A DNA stretch of 64,000 bases, from the NCBI GenBank assembly GCA_918797485.1, contig CAKKNE010000002.1, positions 710,501 to 774,500 of the forward strand. The letters are read 5' to 3'. Below, piece after piece: positions 13,673-51,647 of the stretch; positions within the stretch are counted from its first letter, which is position 1; each line of letters starts with the position of its first letter. Both the position numbers and the translations under genes were made by a program. Origin of the DNA: Pelagomonas calceolata. Its lineage: Eukaryota; Sar; Pelagophyceae; Pelagomonadales; Pelagomonadaceae. The notes below the pieces were generated by a model, which worked only from the letters and a program-made list of their open reading frames with translations, made no database searches and had not been told where the DNA came from.

Positions 13673-15837
13673 CTACATGCTGATGCGGCTCCGGCCCGTC
13701 GACGGCGCCGCGCGCCGCGGCGTCCGCTTCCACGGCGTCGGCGTCGCGCCGTTGTGCAGGTCGCGGAAGGGCGACCGCGACGCGAGGGCCGCGCTGCCCG
13801 GCGGCGGCGTGTAGCCCGGCAAGCGCTCGCGCGACGCCTCGGCCGTCGCCAACTCCGTCCGGACGGGCTCCGACGGCGCGAGCCGCGCGGGCGCCGGCGT
13901 CTCCGCGCCGCGCGCGAGCGCCGCCATCCGCAGCCGCCGAAAGTCCTCGCGCAGCTTGAAGTGCTCCCGGCGCGAAGCCTCGAGCCGGAGCTCGGCGCGG
14001 TCCGCGGCCCGCCGCTGGGCGGCCTCGCGCGCGAGCGCGTCGCGGCAGGCCGCCTGGAGCCGCGCGACCTCGCCGGCGACCTCGCCGAGCTCGTGCTCCG
14101 CCGCGTCGAGGGCCGTGGCGCGTTCTCCTGTGTGGAAAAACCAGTGAATGAGGTTTTTTTGCGTCGACGGCGTGGGGCGGCCGAAATTTGTTTTCCACAC
14201 AGGGGCTTGCCGGCGGCGTCGAGCCGCCGCTGCGCGTCGGCGGCGGCGTCCCGCGCCCGCGCCGCCTGGTCCAGCGCGTCGTCGAGCTCGCGGCGCAGCG
14301 CCGCCGTCGTCGCCTCGGCCTCGGCGAGCGCCGCCCGCAGCGCGTCGCGCTCGGTGCGGTCCGCGCCCGCGGCCCGCGCGGCGTCGAAGGCCGCGCCCGC
14401 CGCCTCAACGGCAGCCGACCGCAGCGCCCGCTCGCGCGCGACGCGCCGGCGGCAGTCGAGCAGCGCGGCGTCGCTCCGCGCGCGGTCCTCGGCGACGGCG
14501 TCCGCGAGCCGCCGGGCCTCGGCCGCGACGCGCCGCCCCTGCGCGTCGGCCGCGGCCCGCGCGGCGCGCGCCGCCCCCTGGCACGCCAGGCGGCCCCGCG
14601 CCTCGGCGGCCGCGACGGCGCGCGCGAGCTGCGTCGCGACCTTGGAATTCGGCGTCGACCGCCGCGCGACCTGCTCGGCGGCCGCCCGCGCCGCCGTCGC
14701 CTCCCGGACCTCCGCCCGCGCCGCCTCCAGTGCCTGCTCCAGCTCGGCCGCGCGCGCCGCGTGGGTCGCTTCCGCGTCCTGCGCGAGCGCGTCGGCGCGC
14801 GCCTCGGCGGCCTCGACGGCGGCCACGAGCGCGTCGCGCTCCTGGCACGCCTCGTCGCGGCGCTCCTCCGCCGCCTCGACGGCCGTGACCAGCGCGTCGC
14901 GCGCCTGCTGCGCCTCGTCGCGCGCGCGCTCGGCCGCGGCCGCGCGCGCCTCGGCCTCCGCGGCCCGGGCATCCGTCTTCGCGTCGCGCGCGCGCTTCGA
15001 CGCCTCCCGCCGCAGGTCCGCCTCGAGCTGCGACACGTCGCCGCGCAGCGCGTCCCGCTCGCCCTCGACGGCCGCGAGGTCGCGCTTGAGGAGCGCGACC
15101 GCGTCGCCGACGTCCCGCTCGAGCGCCTCCTTGTGGCGCCGGCGGTGCTTCTCCTCGAGCTCCGAGTTCTTCCGGATCTGGGCCGCGACCTGGCGGCCGA
15201 GGGCCTCGGCCTGGCGGCGGGCCGCGTCGCGCTCCTCGACCAGCGCGTCGCGCGCCTCGTCGGCGCCGCCGCTCGACGCGCCGGCCTCGACGGCCGCGAG
15301 GCGCGCGCCCAGGGCCGCGCGCTCCGCCGCCGCCGCCGCGGCCTGCTCCCGGAGCGCCTCGCGCTCGGCCGCGGCGCGGTCCCGGTCCCGCTCGGCGCGC
15401 TCGCGCGCGGCCCGCTCCGCGTCGAGCTCGCCCGACGACGCCCGCAGCGCCGCCAGCTCGTGCTCGGCTTGCTCGCGCGCGGCCCGCTCCGACTCAAGAT
15501 CGCCCGACGACGCCCGCAGCGCCGCCAGCTCGTTCTCCGCGCGCTCCCGCGCGGCCTGTTCCGTCGCGAGCTCGCCCTCGAGGAGTTCGAGCGCGGCCTC
15601 GGCGTCCGAGTCCGGCGTCGGCGGGGGCGGCGCGCCTTGCCTCAGCTGGGCGTTCTCCTGGCAGAGGCGCGCGACGTCGTCCTCGCGCGCCGCGAGCAGC
15701 GCGGTGAGCTCCGCGGCGTCCGTGCCGCCCGCGACCAGCGCGAGCCGGCGCTTCAGCTGGTCGATCTCGAGCTTGTACGGGAGGCTGGGCGGCGGCGTGC
15801 GTTGCAGCGAGGTTCTCGTTGCCGGTGTTTCCGCCAT
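13673..15837 (-). CDS. Long coiled-coil protein (Ala/Glu/Arg-rich)
   Basis: The CDS is complement(13673..14127, 14211..15837), 693 residues. After a short Thr/Pro-rich head, almost the whole protein is a heptad-patterned alpha-helix rich in Ala, Glu, Arg and Asp, with internal near-repeats (ARERAE, ELAALRASSG) from residue ~35 to ~600; a short Pro/Arg tail follows. It should be a dimeric rod, perhaps cytoskeletal or scaffold; there is no family signature. The 83-bp intron is an introner with a GC donor. Without removing it the frame runs into unrelated sequence; with removal the heptads continue. Very long antisense frames over this gene are composition artefacts. Confidence 0.75.
14128..14202 (-). 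mobile_element. Introner element in the coiled-coil gene
   Basis: 75 bp with ends CTGTGTGGAAAA and TTTTCCACACAG, read on either strand. It contains the CGTCGACGGCGTGG core. The flanking 8-mers (14120-14127, 14203-14210) match only partly, so the insertion is older. The intron uses the GC of GCAAGCCC as donor and gives a phase-1 junction. Confidence 0.8.
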
Positions 15838-18865: not shown

Positions 18866-19441
18866 TTACGCATCCTCCTTCTCCTCCGCCACGAAGCCAA
18901 AATCGAATTTCTTCTGCGACTTCTCGCGGAGCGTGAACGACAGGTTCCGCACGCGCGCCGCCTCGAGGAGCTGCTCCCGCGAGATGAAGCCCGGCGTTTG
19001 GGTGGCGAGCGCGTCGAAGTCCGTCGAGCAGAAGTGGCGCCCCGCGACGCGCTCCGCCGTGTCCTTGTCGATGCGCTCGGGCAGGGCCTGCGCGCTGCCC
19101 ATCACCCGGGCGCCGCCGTTGTGGAAGACGTAGCCTGCGCGCGCATCGACCGGTGAGTCGGGTGGCTTTGTGCGTCGCGGCGTTTGCTTTCTCGGCGAGA
19201 ACGCGGCCGCGCCGGCTGAATCGAACGGCGAGAGACCACGCCGCCACGCCATCGAGCTCATATCATGAAGATGGCGCGGAGACCATGATTCAGCTGTGGC
19301 GCGACGCGCCGCCATAATTTGATTCAGGCGCTGTGTGTCACCTTGATGGGGAGAAGCAGCCCGGGGCGACGACGCGACCGACGACTGCGCGCGCACGCAG
19401 CTCTTAAGCCCGTTCCGGAGTCCGGCCAGCCACCGCGTCAT
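18866..19441 (-). CDS. Hypothetical protein
   Basis: A 191-residue frame starting at ATG 19441. I recognise no family. The C-terminal ~90 residues (VFHNGGARVMGS, FCSTDFDALATQTPGF, KKFDFGFV) look like a genuine globular or helical segment; the N-terminal half is Arg/Ser/Pro-rich and could be an organelle leader or contain an unrecognised intron, since a CGATGGCGTGG core (shared with introners) and a GCGCGCAG acceptor-like site occur at ~19140-19250. The short N-terminal MTRWLAGLRNGLKS could be mitochondrial targeting. Existence is supported mainly by the open frame and its place in the alternating gene order. Confidence 0.45.
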   Translation of the reverse strand: MTRWLAGLRNGLKSCVRAQSSVASSPRAASPHQGDTQRLNQIMAARRATAESWSPRHLHDMSSMAWRRGLSPFDSAGAAAFSPRKQTPRRTKPPDSPVDARAGYVFHNGGARVMGSAQALPERIDKDTAERVAGRHFCSTDFDALATQTPGFISREQLLEAARVRNLSFTLREKSQKKFDFGFVAEEKEDA

Positions 19442-20027: not shown

Positions 20028-22855
20028 ATGATGGATGACATCGAGAAGACCAAACCGGTCGATGCGGCCCCGGCGGACGACGACGAGACCGGCGCGGGCT
20101 GCGACGTCTGCATGCCGCCCATCGCGCTGGTCGGCGCCGACGATTATGATTACAAGTACCTGTGCATGCCGTCGATGGTCCGCGCGCTGCGTAGAAATCA
20201 ATTGCAACGCGCTACACGCCATCGACGCGATGGACTCGATGGCGTGGGACTCACTGGTTTATTTTCTCACAGCCGTGGAGCAAGGGCGGCGTCGAGCCGC
20301 CGCAGTTCCTCGCCAAGGACGAGAAGCTGCCCCTGACGCTCTCGCTAATCATGGGCCTGCAGCACGCGCTGGCTATGGTTGCGGGTCGGCGACGGCGTCC
20401 GTTTCGTCGCTCGCGTACCGCGCTTCACCGGCGGTCGACGCCCGCGCAGGCATCGCCACGAGCGGCGGCATGCTCATCGCGGGCGACGCCTGCTTCGATT
20501 GGCAAAAGGACTCGGAGATGTGCGATAGCCGCGAGTACCTCGTGAGCGCCGCCTGGATCACGTCGGGCATCCTCACGATCATCCAGGTCTTCCGCGCGAA
20601 GATCATCGGCACGGGCTACTACCTCGGCACGGGCCTCATCTCCGTCATGGGCACGTCCTTCACGTTCCTGCCGATCGCGCGCGAGATGGTCATCCGCGCC
20701 ATCACGGACGCGCAGGCCGAGGGCAAGTGCGACTGCACGCCGGGCACGGCCGACGACGGCTCCGCGACGTGCGGCTACCCCTTCGACTGCAAGGGCTACG
20801 GCATGGAGGGCTACGGCCGGTTCCTCGGCACGGCCATGGTCGCGGCCTTCCTGGAGGTGGTCATTGCGCTCATGCCGTCAAAGATGCGCCAGAAGATGTT
20901 CCCGCCGGTGGTGACGGGCGTCGCGGTCATGCTCATCGGCGCGTCGCTCATCGCGGCGGGCATCAAGTACGTGGGCGGCGGCGTGTTCTGCGCCGAGAAC
21001 GACCTCGCCAAGTCGGCCGCGCTGCCGTTCGGGCCGCAGCTCTGCAACGAGAACGGCAACGTCATGTTACCATTCGGGAGCCCGGAGTACGTCGGCCTCG
21101 CGTTCAGTGCCGACGCGGCGTCCTCGATCGTGTCGATCGCGTCTCGGGGAGAAGCTTCAGCCTCGCGCCATCGAGCAAACTTGTCGCGCAGGCGTCATCT
21201 TCATGAGCGTCTTCCTCCAGTTCTTTGGGAGCCCCTTCCTCAAGTCGACGTTCCTCTTTTGGGGCCTGATGTTCGGCTGCTTCGTGGCCGGCATCAGCAC
21301 GTACGAGGGCAAGGGCTCGGTCTGGGACAAGTACGAGCGCACGTTCAGCTTCTCGAAGCCCGACGACAAGGTCATCGCGTCCGAGGTGCACATGAAGCAG
21401 GGGCGCCAGTACAAGTACTTCAACGACTACCGCATCCGCAACGCGCCCTGGTTCACGTTCCTCTGGGCCGAGACGTTTCCGCTGGGCTTCGCGCCGGAGT
21501 ACTTCCTCCCGATCCTGATCGGCTATTTCGTCTCGACCTGCGTGGAAATCAATCAGTGAGTTAGGTTATCCTGAGAAATATTGCGTGGACCTTCGTGAGC
21601 CTCCACGCCATCGAGCCGACGCGGTCGCGGAGAAAACGTCGCGTCGATGGCGTGGGGCGCCCGAAATTTGATTTCCACTCAGGTCTCGACGGCGGAGACG
21701 ATCGGCGACGTGACCATGTCTTGCAAGTACTCGAAGCTCGAGACGGAAGGGCCTGACTTCGAGAGCCGCGTGCAAGGCGGGTTGCTCGCGGACGGCGTCA
21801 ACTCGTTCCTCGCCTGCCTCTTCACGAGCCCGCCCAATACCACCTTCTCGCAGAACAACGGCGTCATCTCGCTCACGCAGTGCGCGTCGCGGTCCGCGGG
21901 CTTCTCGTGCGCGTTCTGGCTGATATTGTTCGGTGTGTTCGGGAAACTGGGCGCGGCGTTCACGTCGATCCCCATCTGCGTGGTCGGGGGCCTCGTGCTC
22001 CAGTGTTTCGCGAGCGTGTTCGTCTCGGGGATGTTCATCGCTACCAAACACGCGACTCGCCGCAACGCCTTCATCCTCATGCTGTCGCTGGCCCTCGGCA
22101 TCGGCGTCGCCATGGAGCCAAATCTTTTCGAGGGCGGCGGCGTGGCGTCCTTCCACGGGAAGAACCTCCGGCACAACACTGGGTTTTGGCCCCGCTACAA
22201 GACGTGCAAGACGTTCCCGGTCGACTCGGAGACGGGCGCGCAGGTGCGCACGTGCACGAACGACAACGGCGCGTGCTGTTCCGAGTACGACAAGGGCGAT
22301 GACCTGTGTGGAAATCAACCATAATTCTTCACTAAGTCATTTCTCGGCGATGACGTGGCCGCGCTGGTTCCGTCGAGCGGTGAGGAACCGACACCGCCAC
22401 GCCATCGAGCAGGCGTCGCGTCGATGGCGTGGAGATCGATGCGGCTATTCAGGACGAACGCGCCGTAAATTTGATTTCCGCACAGGCGAGGATTCCAATA
22501 GAACGACCGCGATCATCCTCCTCAAAACGCCGTACGCCATCGGCTTCGTACTGTGTGAAAATCAACCAGTGTGTCGGGTGCAAAATTTTTCACTAAGTCA
22601 TTTCTCGGCGATGACGCGGCCATCCTGGCTCGGTCGAGCGGTGAGGAACCGGCATCGCCACGCCATCGAGCAGGCGTCGCGTCGATGGCGTGGAGATCGA
22701 TGCGATGATTCAGCACGAACGCGCCGTAAAATTTTGATTTCCACACAGGCTTCATCGTCGCCCTCTTCCTGCACCTCCTGCTGCCCGAGGACAAGGAGGA
22801 AGAGGAGGAAGAGGAATCCGGCAAGGAAATGAAGGTCGACCCGGTCGAGGCGTGA
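20028..22855 (+). CDS. Nucleobase-ascorbate (xanthine/uric acid) transporter, seven exons
   Basis: The CDS is join(20028..20177, 20273..20384, 20450..21106, 21192..21529, 21683..22295, 22486..22542, 22749..22855), 677 residues, and every junction keeps frame. It is a multi-pass NAT/NCS2 permease: GLQHALAMVAG in TM1, ATSGGMLIAGD, a long loop, and the QxxxxT-equivalent FVSTAETIGD motif that meets exactly across intron 4. It imports xanthine, uric acid or related purines at the plasma or vacuolar membrane. The tail is acidic after the last hydrophobic helix (FIVALFLHLLLPED). Introns 4, 5 and 6 are clear introners, and intron 1 is a worn one. Introns 5 and 6 use GC donors. Two luminal/extracellular Cys-rich loops are unusually long for the family. 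Confidence 0.88.
20178..20272 (+). mobile_element. Worn introner forming intron 1 of the transporter
   Basis: Contains CTGCGTAGAAATCAATT near the 5' side, TTATTTTCTCACAG at the 3' side, and the inverted core ACGCCATCGACGCG / CTCGATGGCGTGG. The target duplication is no longer readable, so it is older than introns 4-6. Confidence 0.6.
21538..21682 (+). mobile_element. Introner element forming intron 4 of the transporter
   Basis: 145 bp, ends CTGCGTGGAAATCAA and TTGATTTCCACTCAG, flanked by perfect 8-bp copies of GTCTCGAC (21530-21537, 21683-21690). The left copy supplies the GT donor, the element the AG. Confidence 0.93.
22304..22485 (+). mobile_element. Introner element forming intron 5 of the transporter
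   Basis: 182 bp, ends CTGTGTGGAAATCAA and TTGATTTCCGCACAG. The target copies GCGATGAC/GCGAGGAT match 6 of 8, and the donor is GC. The interior is about 90 % identical to the element at 22551. Confidence 0.92.
22551..22748 (+). mobile_element. Introner element forming intron 6 of the transporter
   Basis: 198 bp, ends CTGTGTGAAAATCAA and TTGATTTCCACACAG. The target copies GCTTCGTA/GCTTCATC match 6 of 8, and the donor is GC. The exon left between this and the previous element is only 57 nt. Confidence 0.92.
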
Positions 22856-36692: not shown

Positions 36693-38147
36693 ATGCGTGC
36701 ACTCCGACGAGTGTTGCTCGGAGCGCTGCTAAAATGTGCGACTGCTGATGTTCGGCGGCGAAACCAATCGCCGCTCAGCCTGCCAAAGCGCAGCCATGCA
36801 CTGCAGCTGCGAGGCGGCACCAGCGCCGCCGCACCAACCACTTCGACGGCACCCGCCACGACACCTACATCAGTCAAGAAGAAGCACGCCTACATCACGC
36901 CTCGGGAACTGACGCAGATCATGGTCGCGGACCTCGCGCCGCACGGCATGCTCCCCTTGGCGTGGGCGGCGACGCGCGGCGCGGGCACGGGCGTCGTGCC
37001 CGCCGTGTTGCTCTTGGCGGTCTTCGCGTCGTCTTCTGCGTATACGTTGTATTTGGCGGCGCAGCTCGCCGAGGCCGGCCGGGAGGCGCGGCGGGCCGCG
37101 CCGGCTCTCTCGGAGCTGTGGCGCGGGGCAAAATTACCCTTGCCAAAGGCCGTGGACGCCATGGTCGCGTTGCTCTGTGGCGGGTGTTGCGTCTTCTACG
37201 CCGCGTTCGCCGCGGACCTGTTCTACGCTTTGGCGAAGCGCCTAGGTCTAGGCACGTCCAGAGAAATGGTTTTAGGTGTATTGACGTGCATACCACTAGC
37301 GCCACTTTGCCTAGGAGACGACCTGAGCGTGCTCAAGTACTCGTCGCTCGCCGGGTTGCTGGGAATTGCCTATACGGCGTCATTTATTGGTAAAAACGGC
37401 GTCACAACAGACGTCGCGCCCATCCCAGCCACACAAACGTGCTCCGGGACGCTCGTCCTGGCCAACACGTTGGTGGTGGCCTTCCTCTGCCACTACAACG
37501 CGGTCCAGTACTACCGCGAGCTTTCGCCAAGAAGGCGGACGCCCGACAAGTTTAGGAGGGCGGTCCGGGGCGGCGTCCGTTTTTTTTGACCTTCGCTCTG
37601 CTCGACGGCGTGCGCGTCGCCCCCTACGCCGTCGACGCGACGTCTACGCACACAGGTCGTCCGGGGCGCCGCGCTCACGGCCCTCGTCTTCGCCGCGACG
37701 CTCTTCGGCGGCGCGCGGGCGTTTGGATCAAACGCGCTGCCGAACGTGCTGAACAACTACGACGCCGACTCGCTCGGCGCGACGGTCGCGCGGCTGGGCA
37801 CGGGCGTGGCCATCCTGAGCGGCTTCCCGCTCATGTTTGCCGGGTTGAAGGCCGCGCTCGACGGCTGCTTCAAGCTCCGGGGCCCCGCGCGGCCGGCGAC
37901 GCACGGCGCGCTGCTCGCGGCGATCGCGTCCGTCGCGGCGACGTCGTCCGAGGACGACATCGGCCTCATCATCGAGCTGCTGGGGTCGACGCTCGGCGTC
38001 GCGGCGGCGTACGTCGTGCCCGGGCTCTGCGCCGCGCGGTCGAGTGCTCTCGAGAAGAAGCACCGGCGCTCGGGCGCTTTGATCGCGGTGGGCGGGATGG
38101 GGCTCTGCGTCGGCGGGACGTACCTCACGCTGAAGACCCACGCCTAG
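36693..38147 (+). CDS. AAAP/SLC38-type amino-acid transporter
   Basis: The CDS is join(36693..37562, 37656..38147), 453 residues. An N-terminal leader (RVLLGALLKCATADV) is followed by about ten membrane helices of the amino acid/auxin permease kind: MLPLAWAATRGAG, DLSVLKYSSLAGLLGIAY, ANTLVVAFLCHYNAVQYYREL, then after the intron LTALVFAATLFGG. It should move amino acids with protons or sodium; location uncertain (the leader may indicate plastid or ER). The 93-bp intron (GTCCGGGG...CACACAG) resembles a worn introner with a CGACGGCGTG / CGCCGTCGACGCG pair. The fit is phase 0. Confidence 0.8.
37563..37655 (+). mobile_element. Probable worn introner in the amino-acid transporter gene
   Basis: 93-bp GT-AG intron ending CGCACACAG, with the inverted GGCGTGCGCGTCG / CTACGCCGTCGACGCG core. 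The left TIR is lost. Confidence 0.45.
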
Positions 38148-38420
38148 CTGAGGGGGGCTCGTAAAACTAAATCGTAGTATCAGCCCGTGCGTCGCGCGTC
38201 GCGGTGCCCAGACCTGCGCCGTGTCGATGGCGTAGAGGTCCAAGCGACCAAGCGCACCGAGGTCGCGTCAATGACGGGGTCAAACGAGGCCTGTACACCT
38301 GATGCTTTGCCCCAGCTTTAGCAAATTAAGTGGGATGGCACTAGGCTTTTAGGCTTATTTTTGGTGAAGGCAAGGCAGCGATCGCCTTTGCGCCCGGCTT
38401 TGTGAGGCTGCTTGGGCATC

Positions 38421-44448: not shown

Positions 44449-44969
44449 TCACTCGCACGTGCCGCACGCCTTGCCGCACGCGCGGAACGCGTAGGCCTCG
44501 ACGGGACCGGGCTTGTTCGGGTCCTCGTCGTCCTCGGACTCCTCGAACTCCTCCATGAGGATGCCGGACTCCGTGCAGCGCTCCCGCTTCTCCGCGACCC
44601 AGTCGCAGTTCAGGCGCTTCACGCCCTCGAAGGACCAGTTAGAAGTACTCTTGCAGACGGCGTCGGAGCCGGGGCACCTGTGTGGAAATCAATCAGTGTG
44701 TCGGGTGCACCACTGCACCGCGCCGTAAAATTTGATTTTCACACAGCGAGGTACGTCGAACACGAACGGCGACACGCCTCGTAGCCGTACTTGCCGTTCG
44801 TCCCGCGCGCCGCGCACGCCTTCTCGCGCGACGTCAGCACGAAGCCGTCGCCCTCGGCCGTCGAGCCCGTCTCGTAGGTCGTAGACATCTTGGCGATGGC
44901 CGCGCATGTCCCGGCGTCCGACTTCCACGAGGCGTCGTCCGCGCACGAGTCCGTGACCATGCGGCAGAC
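44449..44969 (-). CDS. Cys-rich ShK-like secreted protein (3' exons)
   Basis: The visible exons are complement(44449..44677, 44755..44969). Together they encode about 147 residues with regularly spaced Cys: CRMVTDSCADD, GYEACRRSCSTC (formed across the junction), RLNCDWVAEKRERC, RACGKACGTCE then stop. Two ShK-like modules of the algal kind (C-W-V, RC, C-x-x-x-C-x-x-C) are indicated; such modules usually face outside the cell or ride on hydroxylases. The 77-bp intron is a miniature introner with a GT donor. The 5' exon with the expected signal peptide was not found; the exon at 44969 begins right after the acceptor of a half introner. Confidence 0.65.
44678..44746 (-). mobile_element. Miniature introner element (69 bp) in the ShK-like gene
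   Basis: Ends CTGTGTGGAAATCAA and GATTTTCACACAG. The target copies match 6 of 8 (44670-44677, 44747-44754). It consists almost entirely of the two ends of the 198-bp element at 22551 with the middle deleted, and is inverted relative to its host gene. Confidence 0.88.
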
Positions 44970-45035
44970 CTGTGTGGAAATCAAAATTTTACGGCGCGTT
45001 CGTCCTGAATCGTCGCTTCGTCCTCCAGCGCTTTG
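44970..45035 (-). mobile_element. Half introner element
   Basis: CTGTGTGGAAATCAAAATTT and the next ~50 bases match the 3' half of the elements at 22304 and 22551; then similarity stops and no opposite end is found before the next gene. It supplies the acceptor CAG of an exon at 44969. Confidence 0.7.
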
Positions 45036-50075: not shown

Positions 50076-51647
50076 TTACGACGACCCCGCAGCGTCCTTC
50101 CACACGTCGCACGCGCGCCGGCCCGCCTCGACCTTCGTGTATTGGATCTGGCCGTCTACTTTTTTTGGTTGTACAAGTACTTCCATGAATGCGTCGCAGG
50201 CGCCGTCGACCTGTGCGCAAATCGAGCCGGCGTCGCGTCGATGGCGTGGAGGTCACGAGTGCGCGCGCCACGACATTGATTTATGCGCTGCCGTCGACCG
50301 ACGCCGCCACGGCCGCGAGCTTCCCGGCGTCGTCGAGCAAGTCCCCGAAGCACCGCCGCGTGACTGCCGCCGCGACCTGTGTAGAATTTAAACTTCAGGC
50401 GCCCCCCACGCCATCGACGCGATGTCTTGATTTCCGCACGGACCGTGACCCTACGTAAATACGACGCGATGCAGTCGGGACAGACCAGCTCCCGGTCGAC
50501 GACGCGCGCTCCCAGCGCGAGCTGCGCGCGCGCCTTCGAGTAGCGCGGGTCGTTGAGGCCCTCGACGACCTTGATCGCGTTCGCGGTATCCACGATGCCT
50601 ACGTTCTGCAGATGTGCCAGCGCCGGGTAGTACCACTCAACCAAGCGCGCGTTCCAGAGGAGCACGACGGCGCCCGTCGCCCACCTGCGGTCGGTCGCGT
50701 CGCCGGCGTCGATCACCCCTAAGGACGCCGCCGCCGCGCAGGTGGTTCAGGTTCCTGCTATAGCTCCCGCTCGTCTCGCCCGGCAGGTTTAACAAGTACT
50801 GGTACCGCGCGTAGTCCTCGGGCTCGACCCACGCGTCGTCCAGGACCTTCGCCGGGTTCCGGACCACGCTGGACCGGGCCTGGTCGTGCTCCCATCGCTC
50901 CTGGCCGGAGACGCAACTAAAGTCCGACGGCGGCGCGCTCCGCGAGCACTTGACATCAAACAGATCGGGCCGCCGCACGGACAGCGCCGCCCCAAGCATG
51001 CGCGCGCGGTTGCCCCGGTCGCGCGAGCACGTCGTCTCGCCCCACTTCTCCTCCTGGGTGAGCGTCTCGTCTTTCCCGGGGTGGTTCGTCGCCAATCGAC
51101 CCTCGCGGTTCTCGTGGTTCAAACACGAGCCCCTCCAAAACACGCGCGGGTCCGTGCCATTTAACTGGATGGATTTTTGTCTGATATGGTCCTGCTGCCG
51201 GGCCCACGCACCGTGGAGGTCGCCCCGCCCGAAGTAGGGGTTCGGCACCAAGATGCCGCACTGCGCGTAGCCGCTCCGCTTCGCTATGACGGTCGTAGGG
51301 ACTTCATACCCGGTGCCGTTGATGCAGGGCGGCCCCGTCGCCCCGCCGTCGGCCCCTGAAATATGAGCGTAGGCCGTATTTGTCAAACCGCCGTTCCTTA
51401 TTGTAGATGCCAGCATGATCGCGTGGCCGCGCTTCTTTGAAGAGGCCATAAACTTCTCCGTGGCGAAGAGGCGGCCGTCAACTACAAAAATGGCCGAATC
51501 GCGGAGCTCCGCCCCGAACAACTTTCGCGCGACGGCGCGCCCGTCTTCATTGGCCACGAACTCGCCGACGCTCCGCTCCAGTTCGCTTTGGATGTGCTGG
51601 TGCCGCGCCCTCCGCGCGCGCACGTGGTTGCCCCCTACGTGCACCAT
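50076..51647 (-). CDS. GT90 (CAP10/POGLUT-like) glycosyltransferase, four exons
   Basis: The CDS is complement(50076..50210, 50299..50376, 50450..50684, 50740..51647), 451 residues, all junctions in frame. GT90 markers are DPRVFWRGSC (~165), YQYLLNLPGETSGSYSRN and, across the first intron, HLWATGAVVLLWNARLVEWYYPAL. These enzymes move glucose or xylose to proteins or glycans in the ER/Golgi. Exon 1 joins exon 2 through a 55-bp GC-AG intron; the other two introns (50377-50449 and 50211-50298) are introners. The start (ATG 51647) is uncertain because a CTACACAG acceptor-like site lies upstream near 51690. Confidence 0.82.
50211..50290 (-). mobile_element. Introner element forming the last intron of the GT90 gene
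   Basis: 80 bp, flanked by perfect 8-bp copies of CCGTCGAC (GTCGACGG on the gene strand) at 50203-50210 and 50291-50298. Ends CTGTGCGCAAATC and TTGATTTATGCGCTG. Confidence 0.9.
50377..50441 (-). mobile_element. Introner element forming the third intron-side junction of the GT90 gene
   Basis: 65 bp. Ends CTGTGTAGAA on one side, CTTGATTTCCGCACG on the other; target copies GTCACGGT/GTCGCGGC match 6 of 8. Contains CCACGCCATCGACGCG. Confidence 0.85.

Follow-up and report, generated by a model that had tools for sequence, protein, structure and literature searches.

Probable introners in a permease gene of Pelagomonas calceolata: inverted ends, 8-bp target duplications and the proposed origin of splice sites

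Background

The origin of new introns is a long-standing question. In Aureococcus anophagefferens and Micromonas pusilla, introners are reportedly short non-autonomous DNA transposons, and are said to carry one splice site and co-opt the other from the target duplication. A study of introners in which methods allow for opposite-orientation copies described those of an Aureococcus sp. as carrying both splice sites and adding 12 nt (PMC9860276). In Pelagomonas calceolata, for which an assembly of six nuclear contigs (32.4 Mb), a 90 kb plastid and a 39 kb mitochondrion has been described, a peak in intron length near 210 bp was likened to the introners of Aureococcus (PMC9481584); this was the only paper on introners in Pelagomonas found in our literature search. 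Introners and their mechanism are thus already known elsewhere, and their presence in P. calceolata has already been inferred. Here we analyzed a window of 64,000 nt from this species (C2:710501-774500), in which one gene is interrupted by several such elements.

Results

An NCS2, or nucleobase-ascorbate, permease gene (Xan_ur_permease) with seven exons was located on the + strand at 20028..22855. Once all six introns were excised in the gene model, there was an open frame of 677 codons (677 aa), and the predicted protein matched PF00860 in a profile search (E 4.3e-58), so the transporter gene proposed in the initial annotation was confirmed. Relatives of the permease included the pelagophytes Aureococcus and Chrysophaeum, and the closest near-full-length relatives among the 120 of 1990 that were listed were 67% identical. 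Counting only those of the 120 listed relatives that spanned a given junction, the alignment was ungapped across the junctions of intron 3 in 116 of 118, intron 4 in 116 of 119, intron 5 in 89 of 106, and intron 6 in 104 of 105. Continuity was weaker at intron 1, where 41 of 98 spanning relatives aligned without a gap, and at intron 2, where 69 of 108 did. Two close relatives were continuous through some of the intron sites: P0007 (94% over 67%) through those of introns 2-4, and P0058 (96% over 45%) through those of introns 1-2, after which it read into intron 3. These may derive either from DNA with empty sites or from RNA, and were not counted as empty sites. P0007, an environmental relative with 123 member sequences, also departed, from approximately its residue 450, from the frame near query residue 528, ran through approximately 33 foreign residues, and resumed in a different frame, as though an unspliced intron lay at a position where the permease gene has none.

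Three of the six introns, all on the + strand, consisted of one copy of a duplicated 8-bp target followed by an element with inverted ends, and in each of them the first base was the G of the first target copy and the last two bases were the AG of the element. Intron 4 (21530..21682) began with the target copy GTCTCGAC (21530..21537), which contained the 5' splice site with its GT, and continued as a 145-nt element with 15-nt inverted ends, CTGCGTGGAAATCAA and TTGATTTCCACTCAG (21538..21682); the second target copy (21683..21690) was identical (8/8), exonic, and encoded part of the motif FVSTAETIGD. Intron 5 (22296..22485) had a GC donor from its first target copy, GCGATGAC (22296..22303), then an element of 182 nt that differed by 3.4% from the family consensus and ended in CTGTGTGGAAATCAA and TTGATTTCCGCACAG (22304..22485), and was followed by the exonic copy GCGAGGAT (22486..22493), which matched the first at 6/8 bases. 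Intron 6 (22543..22748) likewise had a GC donor from its first target copy, GCTTCGTA (22543..22550), and a 198-nt element, 5.7% from consensus, with the ends CTGTGTGAAAATCAA and TTGATTTCCACACAG (22551..22748); its exonic second copy was GCTTCATC (22749..22756), again with 6/8 agreement. The inverted ends and 8-bp duplications that had been proposed for introns 4-6 were therefore reproduced at every coordinate.

The count of three insertions that accompanied them was too low, since intron 1 (20178..20272, + strand) was a fourth, eroded introner. It contained element ends at 20187-20201 and 20258-20272 with 2 and 3 mismatches and matched the element body at 84% over 38 nt (E 2e-5), and its target copies were eroded beyond recognition, agreeing at 3/8. 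Introns 2 (20385..20449, + strand, 65 nt) and 3 (21107..21191, + strand, 85 nt) had no element ends at ≤3 mismatches in the 15-mer end search, and intron 3 shared a stretch of 12 nt with the element body. By the reading of targets and ends together with the body match, element sequence was present in four of the six introns of the permease gene. Across the window, the 15-mer end had 19 matches at ≤3 mismatches versus a mean of 0.59 in shuffles, and further introner copies, whole, short or fragmentary, were seen at 14128-14202, 19188-19257, 37613-37645, 38216-38246, 44678-44746, 44970-45027, and 50377-50441.

Within a single frame of 383 codons, a paralog at C2:3171315-3172307 matched residues 10-172 and 605-665 of the permease. 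It was intronless where the permease gene has introns 1, 2, 5, and 6, and the empty-site comparison covers these four sites; the stretch that holds site 4 lies outside the match. At site 5 the paralog had the 8-mer GCGAGGAC, which was one change away from each of the window copies, intronic and exonic; the two copies of intron 5 agree at only 6/8 because each has one private change relative to this paralogous 8-mer. The paralog sequence at site 6, GCACGATC, had only a few bases in common with either window copy and was too far from both of them to be of use for the intron 6 target. The paralog, examined as locus L118 (C2:3170900-3172800), was shortened, with roughly 430 codons of the permease without a match, and it had an introner of its own at another place. 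That introner seemed to be truncated on the 3' side, with one edge of the gap apparently inside it, which suggests that introners may be able to seed exon deletions.

The whole genome was searched for further copies. Its assembly totals 32,445,274 bases and comprises 8 contigs, of which six measure 3.9-6.3 Mb and the other two 90,574 and 39,373 bases. The 15-mer element end had 1562 exact occurrences, and at ≤2 mismatches there were 3250 occurrences versus 22 for the reversed pattern, which would correspond to perhaps 1,600 elements. The eight bases outside the 1562 exact ends began with GT at 645 and with GC at 342, where the background frequencies are 5.3% and 11.7%. A search with the intron 5 element gave 839 first-look candidates, 40 of which were scored and yielded 43 match rows.

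A pool of 76 pairs of element ends was drawn from 61 loci, which comprised the window, 19 ten-kb loci, three 3-kb loci (L002, L007, and L008; L001 and L003-L006 fall inside ten-kb loci), and 38 pieces (L078-L115) flanking matches to the intron 5 element. L013 was excluded as a duplicate of L009. Eight of the 61 loci, namely L028, L085, both organelle loci, and four chromosome ends, contributed no pairs. Several of the ten-kb loci were chosen for their exact ends, so that the sample is non-random for the element and blind to target copies and genes. The target copies agreed at 8/8 bases in 43 of the 76 pairs, 7/8 in 16, and 6/8 in 7. When target copies were swapped between elements (approximately 20,000 draws), agreement of at least 6/8 was reached in 3.3% and of 8/8 in 0.07%. 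The 10 pairs with agreement below 6/8 were excluded and 66 were retained. Every one of the 66 had GT or GC at an end, compared to 31% expected by chance, and 54 of them had GT at an end, compared to 10.4%. Seven of the 10 excluded pairs also had GT or GC at an end; the other three, intron 1 included, had neither at the exact place.

Fifty-one full-length elements had a median pairwise identity of 92%, and in the family consensus the same 15 nt, inverted, stood at both ends. Repeats at many positions, inverted ends, target duplication, split origin of the splice sites, and the empty paralogous site together support the reading of these sequences as a DNA-transposon introner. Two loci in the sample had unusual target arrangements. 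At L094:301-714 two introners lay exactly 8 bp apart and the 8-mer TCCGCGAC was present three times; one introner has apparently inserted into a target copy that belonged to the other, which would leave either two introns without an exon between them or one composite intron. The introner at L017:4210-4346 was flanked by the 8-mers TCCTTCGC and GCGAAGGA, an exact inverted rather than direct repeat, as though the sequence on one side had been inverted.

If the elements are introns in coding exons, the sequence on either side should belong to one reading frame. A codon model was trained on 59 long ORFs, and the left and right flanks of each element were scored separately. In 52 of the 66 elements the two flanks agreed on strand and frame across the empty site, while shifted controls, in which the right flank was moved one or two bases, did so in 1 of 66 each. 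This result bears on whether the elements could be unspliced insertions and the permease gene a broken copy. Such a gene would run into a stop on in-frame reading of intron 4 and be shifted in frame by introns 5 and 6 (190 and 206 nt); nonetheless its seven exons hold the conserved permease frame, and frame is kept just as it is in most of the sampled elements, so that this alternative is very improbable.

A second version of the coding test, with slightly different flanks, was passed by 49 of the 66 elements and not by 17. On the coding strand, the dinucleotide at the donor place in the 49 passing elements was GT in 35, GC in 14, and anything else in none, with intron phases 0, 1, and 2 in 24, 9, and 16. 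Relative to background (5.3% and 11.7%), GT was by hand calculation approximately 5.5 times as successful as GC. In the first version of the test, there were 46 elements in which the target copies marked one end alone as the donor; the end so marked fitted the coding strand in 42 of them, and the four exceptions had GC on the coding strand. With the permease gene and its empty-site paralog, the 66 sampled elements thus support at the sequence level the earlier proposal that the target copy gives GT or GC and the element gives AG, with the original codons restored.

Target bias is common among transposases, and hAT enzymes favor nTnnnnAn. The excess of GT and GC could then reflect a target preference of the transposase rather than selection for splicing, and 8-mers that begin with GT do have T at position 2. 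A preference that acts on DNA only, though, could not know the coding strand, and the dinucleotide was at the coding-strand donor place in every one of the 49 coding-confident elements. Nor did the GT donor depend on the orientation of the element: body and GT donor were in the same orientation in 15 elements and opposite in 24 (p 0.20), compared to 5 and 4 for GC donors. Furthermore, if the target were palindromic, GT should appear at each end of the element, and this was found in only 5 of the 66 elements. Target preference as the source of the bias is therefore unlikely, if slightly less so than a broken gene copy, and selection for splicing is the preferred reading. The lack of any element with good target copies and neither GT nor GC (0 of 66) suggests that copies rarely survive outside coding exons.

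The orientation of each element body was set by its match to intron 5 and the strand of the gene from coding potential alone. In the 37 of the 49 elements that had a strong body match, body and gene had the same orientation in 17 and opposite orientations in 20. Had the elements spread through RNA, with spliced intron RNA reverse-splicing into other transcripts and returning to DNA by reverse transcription, the body would always have been inserted in the sense orientation. Elements that are intron-like and lie in coding exons fit such a route, and intron transposition has been proposed for Micromonas, where introners are sense-only (PMC3879977). The presence of the body in both orientations, along with inverted ends that bear the AG, argues against reverse splicing, as do the 8-bp target duplications, and we regard RNA-mediated spread as having very little chance of being correct. 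This orientation result, which helps distinguish DNA transposition from reverse splicing, may already be covered in existing literature.

The ends on the acceptor and donor sides were equally conserved, with no difference detected among 60 elements (28 versus 27 mismatches), and the ends therefore give no visible sign of selection for splice-acceptor function.

The insertions had been described as datable in the initial annotation, an expectation that failed: among the 51 full-length copies the identity of the target copies was not correlated with divergence of the element body (Spearman -0.03, p 0.81, n=51), and dating by target-copy mismatch was rejected. In divergence from consensus, intron 5 ranked 18th and intron 6 41st of these 51 copies; the body of intron 4 was too different for it to be included in the ranking. 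Beyond the paralog being empty at sites 5 and 6, the ends give no date for the insertions. Near-identical chromosome ends offered a second comparison, which covered the first 10 kb of C1 and C5, and C1 near 290-321 kb with its copy in C5. Four introners were common to both members of L024/L025 versus L116/L117 (99.7-99.8% identical), and a fifth was common to C1:1-10000 and C5:1-10000 (99.4% identical). No empty site that would mark a young polymorphic insertion was seen among these five introners, and since all are common to the duplicated ends, the insertions look older than the duplication.

Transposase profile searches of the genome did not find an autonomous partner or any transposon with the introner ends. 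There was no match to MULE (PF10551) or Merlin-type (PF12762) profiles in the genome, and none to P-element type (PF21787) or DUF4371 (PF14291) profiles, for which the control genomes also gave no match, so that absence of the latter two was not shown. Two hAT-like elements were found: one at C5:1220521-1223389 (L030-L032), with ends CTAGGTTGCCA and a perfect 8-bp duplication, ACACTCGG, and one at C4:4499549-4503199 (L029, L033, and L034), with ends CAGGGCAGCAG and a perfect 8-bp duplication, TTGCTCGC. Both looked complete, their open frames being 832 and 721 codons long, and were possibly inserted recently. PF05699 exceeded its cut-off at each of the two loci, with 26.1 bits at C4 and 23.6 bits at C5, the one PF04937 locus in the genome was that at C5, and DUF659 at C5 scored below cut-off; the family evidence for a hAT assignment of the two elements is thin. 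Their ends were unlike those of the introner, so neither was shown to move it. The introner elements themselves have the 8-bp target duplication expected of hAT MITEs, and from the length of this duplication it would be a guess that the introner belongs to hAT.

Viruses were also considered as carriers. The exact 15-mer was present in 43 stretches of viral contigs, 17 of which had some partner end within 8 kb (≤4 mismatches in all). Only one stretch, L063, had a partner end within 320 nt, and its 8-mers agreed at 3/8; among the 43 stretches, no pair in which both 8-mers were readable matched at 5 or more bases. Viruses were rejected as introner carriers and the 15-mer matches were taken as chance.

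Discussion

The explanation that best accounts for these data, and that we consider highly likely, is that the introner is a non-autonomous DNA transposon which is spliced as an intron, with a target copy as the donor and the AG supplied by the element. An element of approximately 200 nt with 15-nt inverted ends (CTGTGTGGAAATCAA ... TTGATTTCCACACAG) would have inserted in coding exons, presumably by cut-and-paste movement, with the duplication of 8 bp that is seen in the flanking sequence. The 5' splice site would then come from the upstream 8-bp copy, as GT or, more rarely, as GC, and the downstream element end would provide AG, with the exon resuming in the downstream 8-bp copy. Excision of copy and element together, probably by splicing, would restore the original codons, as the reading frame and homology indicate. 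The transposase may perhaps have been of the hAT kind, as the 8-bp duplications would suggest.

Because both ends are the same sequence inverted, with each strand ending in ...TTGATTTCCACACAG, the element could function as an intron in either orientation, provided that the sense-strand 8-mer began with GT or GC; insertions without one of these would presumably have been lost by selection. It seems probable, in other words, that the introner is strand-blind: each inverted end would in itself hold all parts of a short 3' splice site, with AG, pyrimidines, and a possible branch point, on both strands, and a sense-strand target 8-mer starting with GT or GC would be the sole requirement. TTGAT may act as the branch point, an idea that the equal conservation of the donor-side and acceptor-side ends leaves unproven. 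If the strand-blind reading is true, the copies are a natural assay of donor choice, and the counts of GT versus GC make donor-site selection measurable. One abundant marine alga offers a large set of intron-making insertions with readable ends, targets, and strands, together with a paralog that has empty sites.

The introners of A. anophagefferens and M. pusilla are reportedly alike in the split origin of their splice sites, a likeness that concerns the mechanism. The logic for which this gene had been matched to Aureococcus and Micromonas is the one given for Symbiodinium in PMC9860276, and the same paper gives a different one for an Aureococcus sp., in which both splice sites are carried. 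The introners of Symbiodinium microadriaticum resemble those described here in having inverted ends, a carried 3' splice site, and a 5' splice site from the duplication (PMC9860276, Fig. 2B), and differ in that the duplication is 4 bp rather than 8 bp. Micromonas introner elements are similar as repeated intron sequences at new gene positions, whereas they are sense-only (PMC3879977) and the elements here occur in both orientations. The closest likeness is within the species itself: an element plus 8 bp measures approximately 210 nt, as in the length peak of P. calceolata, and the elements in the permease gene are very probably the introners inferred in PMC9481584. The main text of that paper gives the length peak only, and the ends, target duplication, donor use, and orientation of these introners were worked out here.
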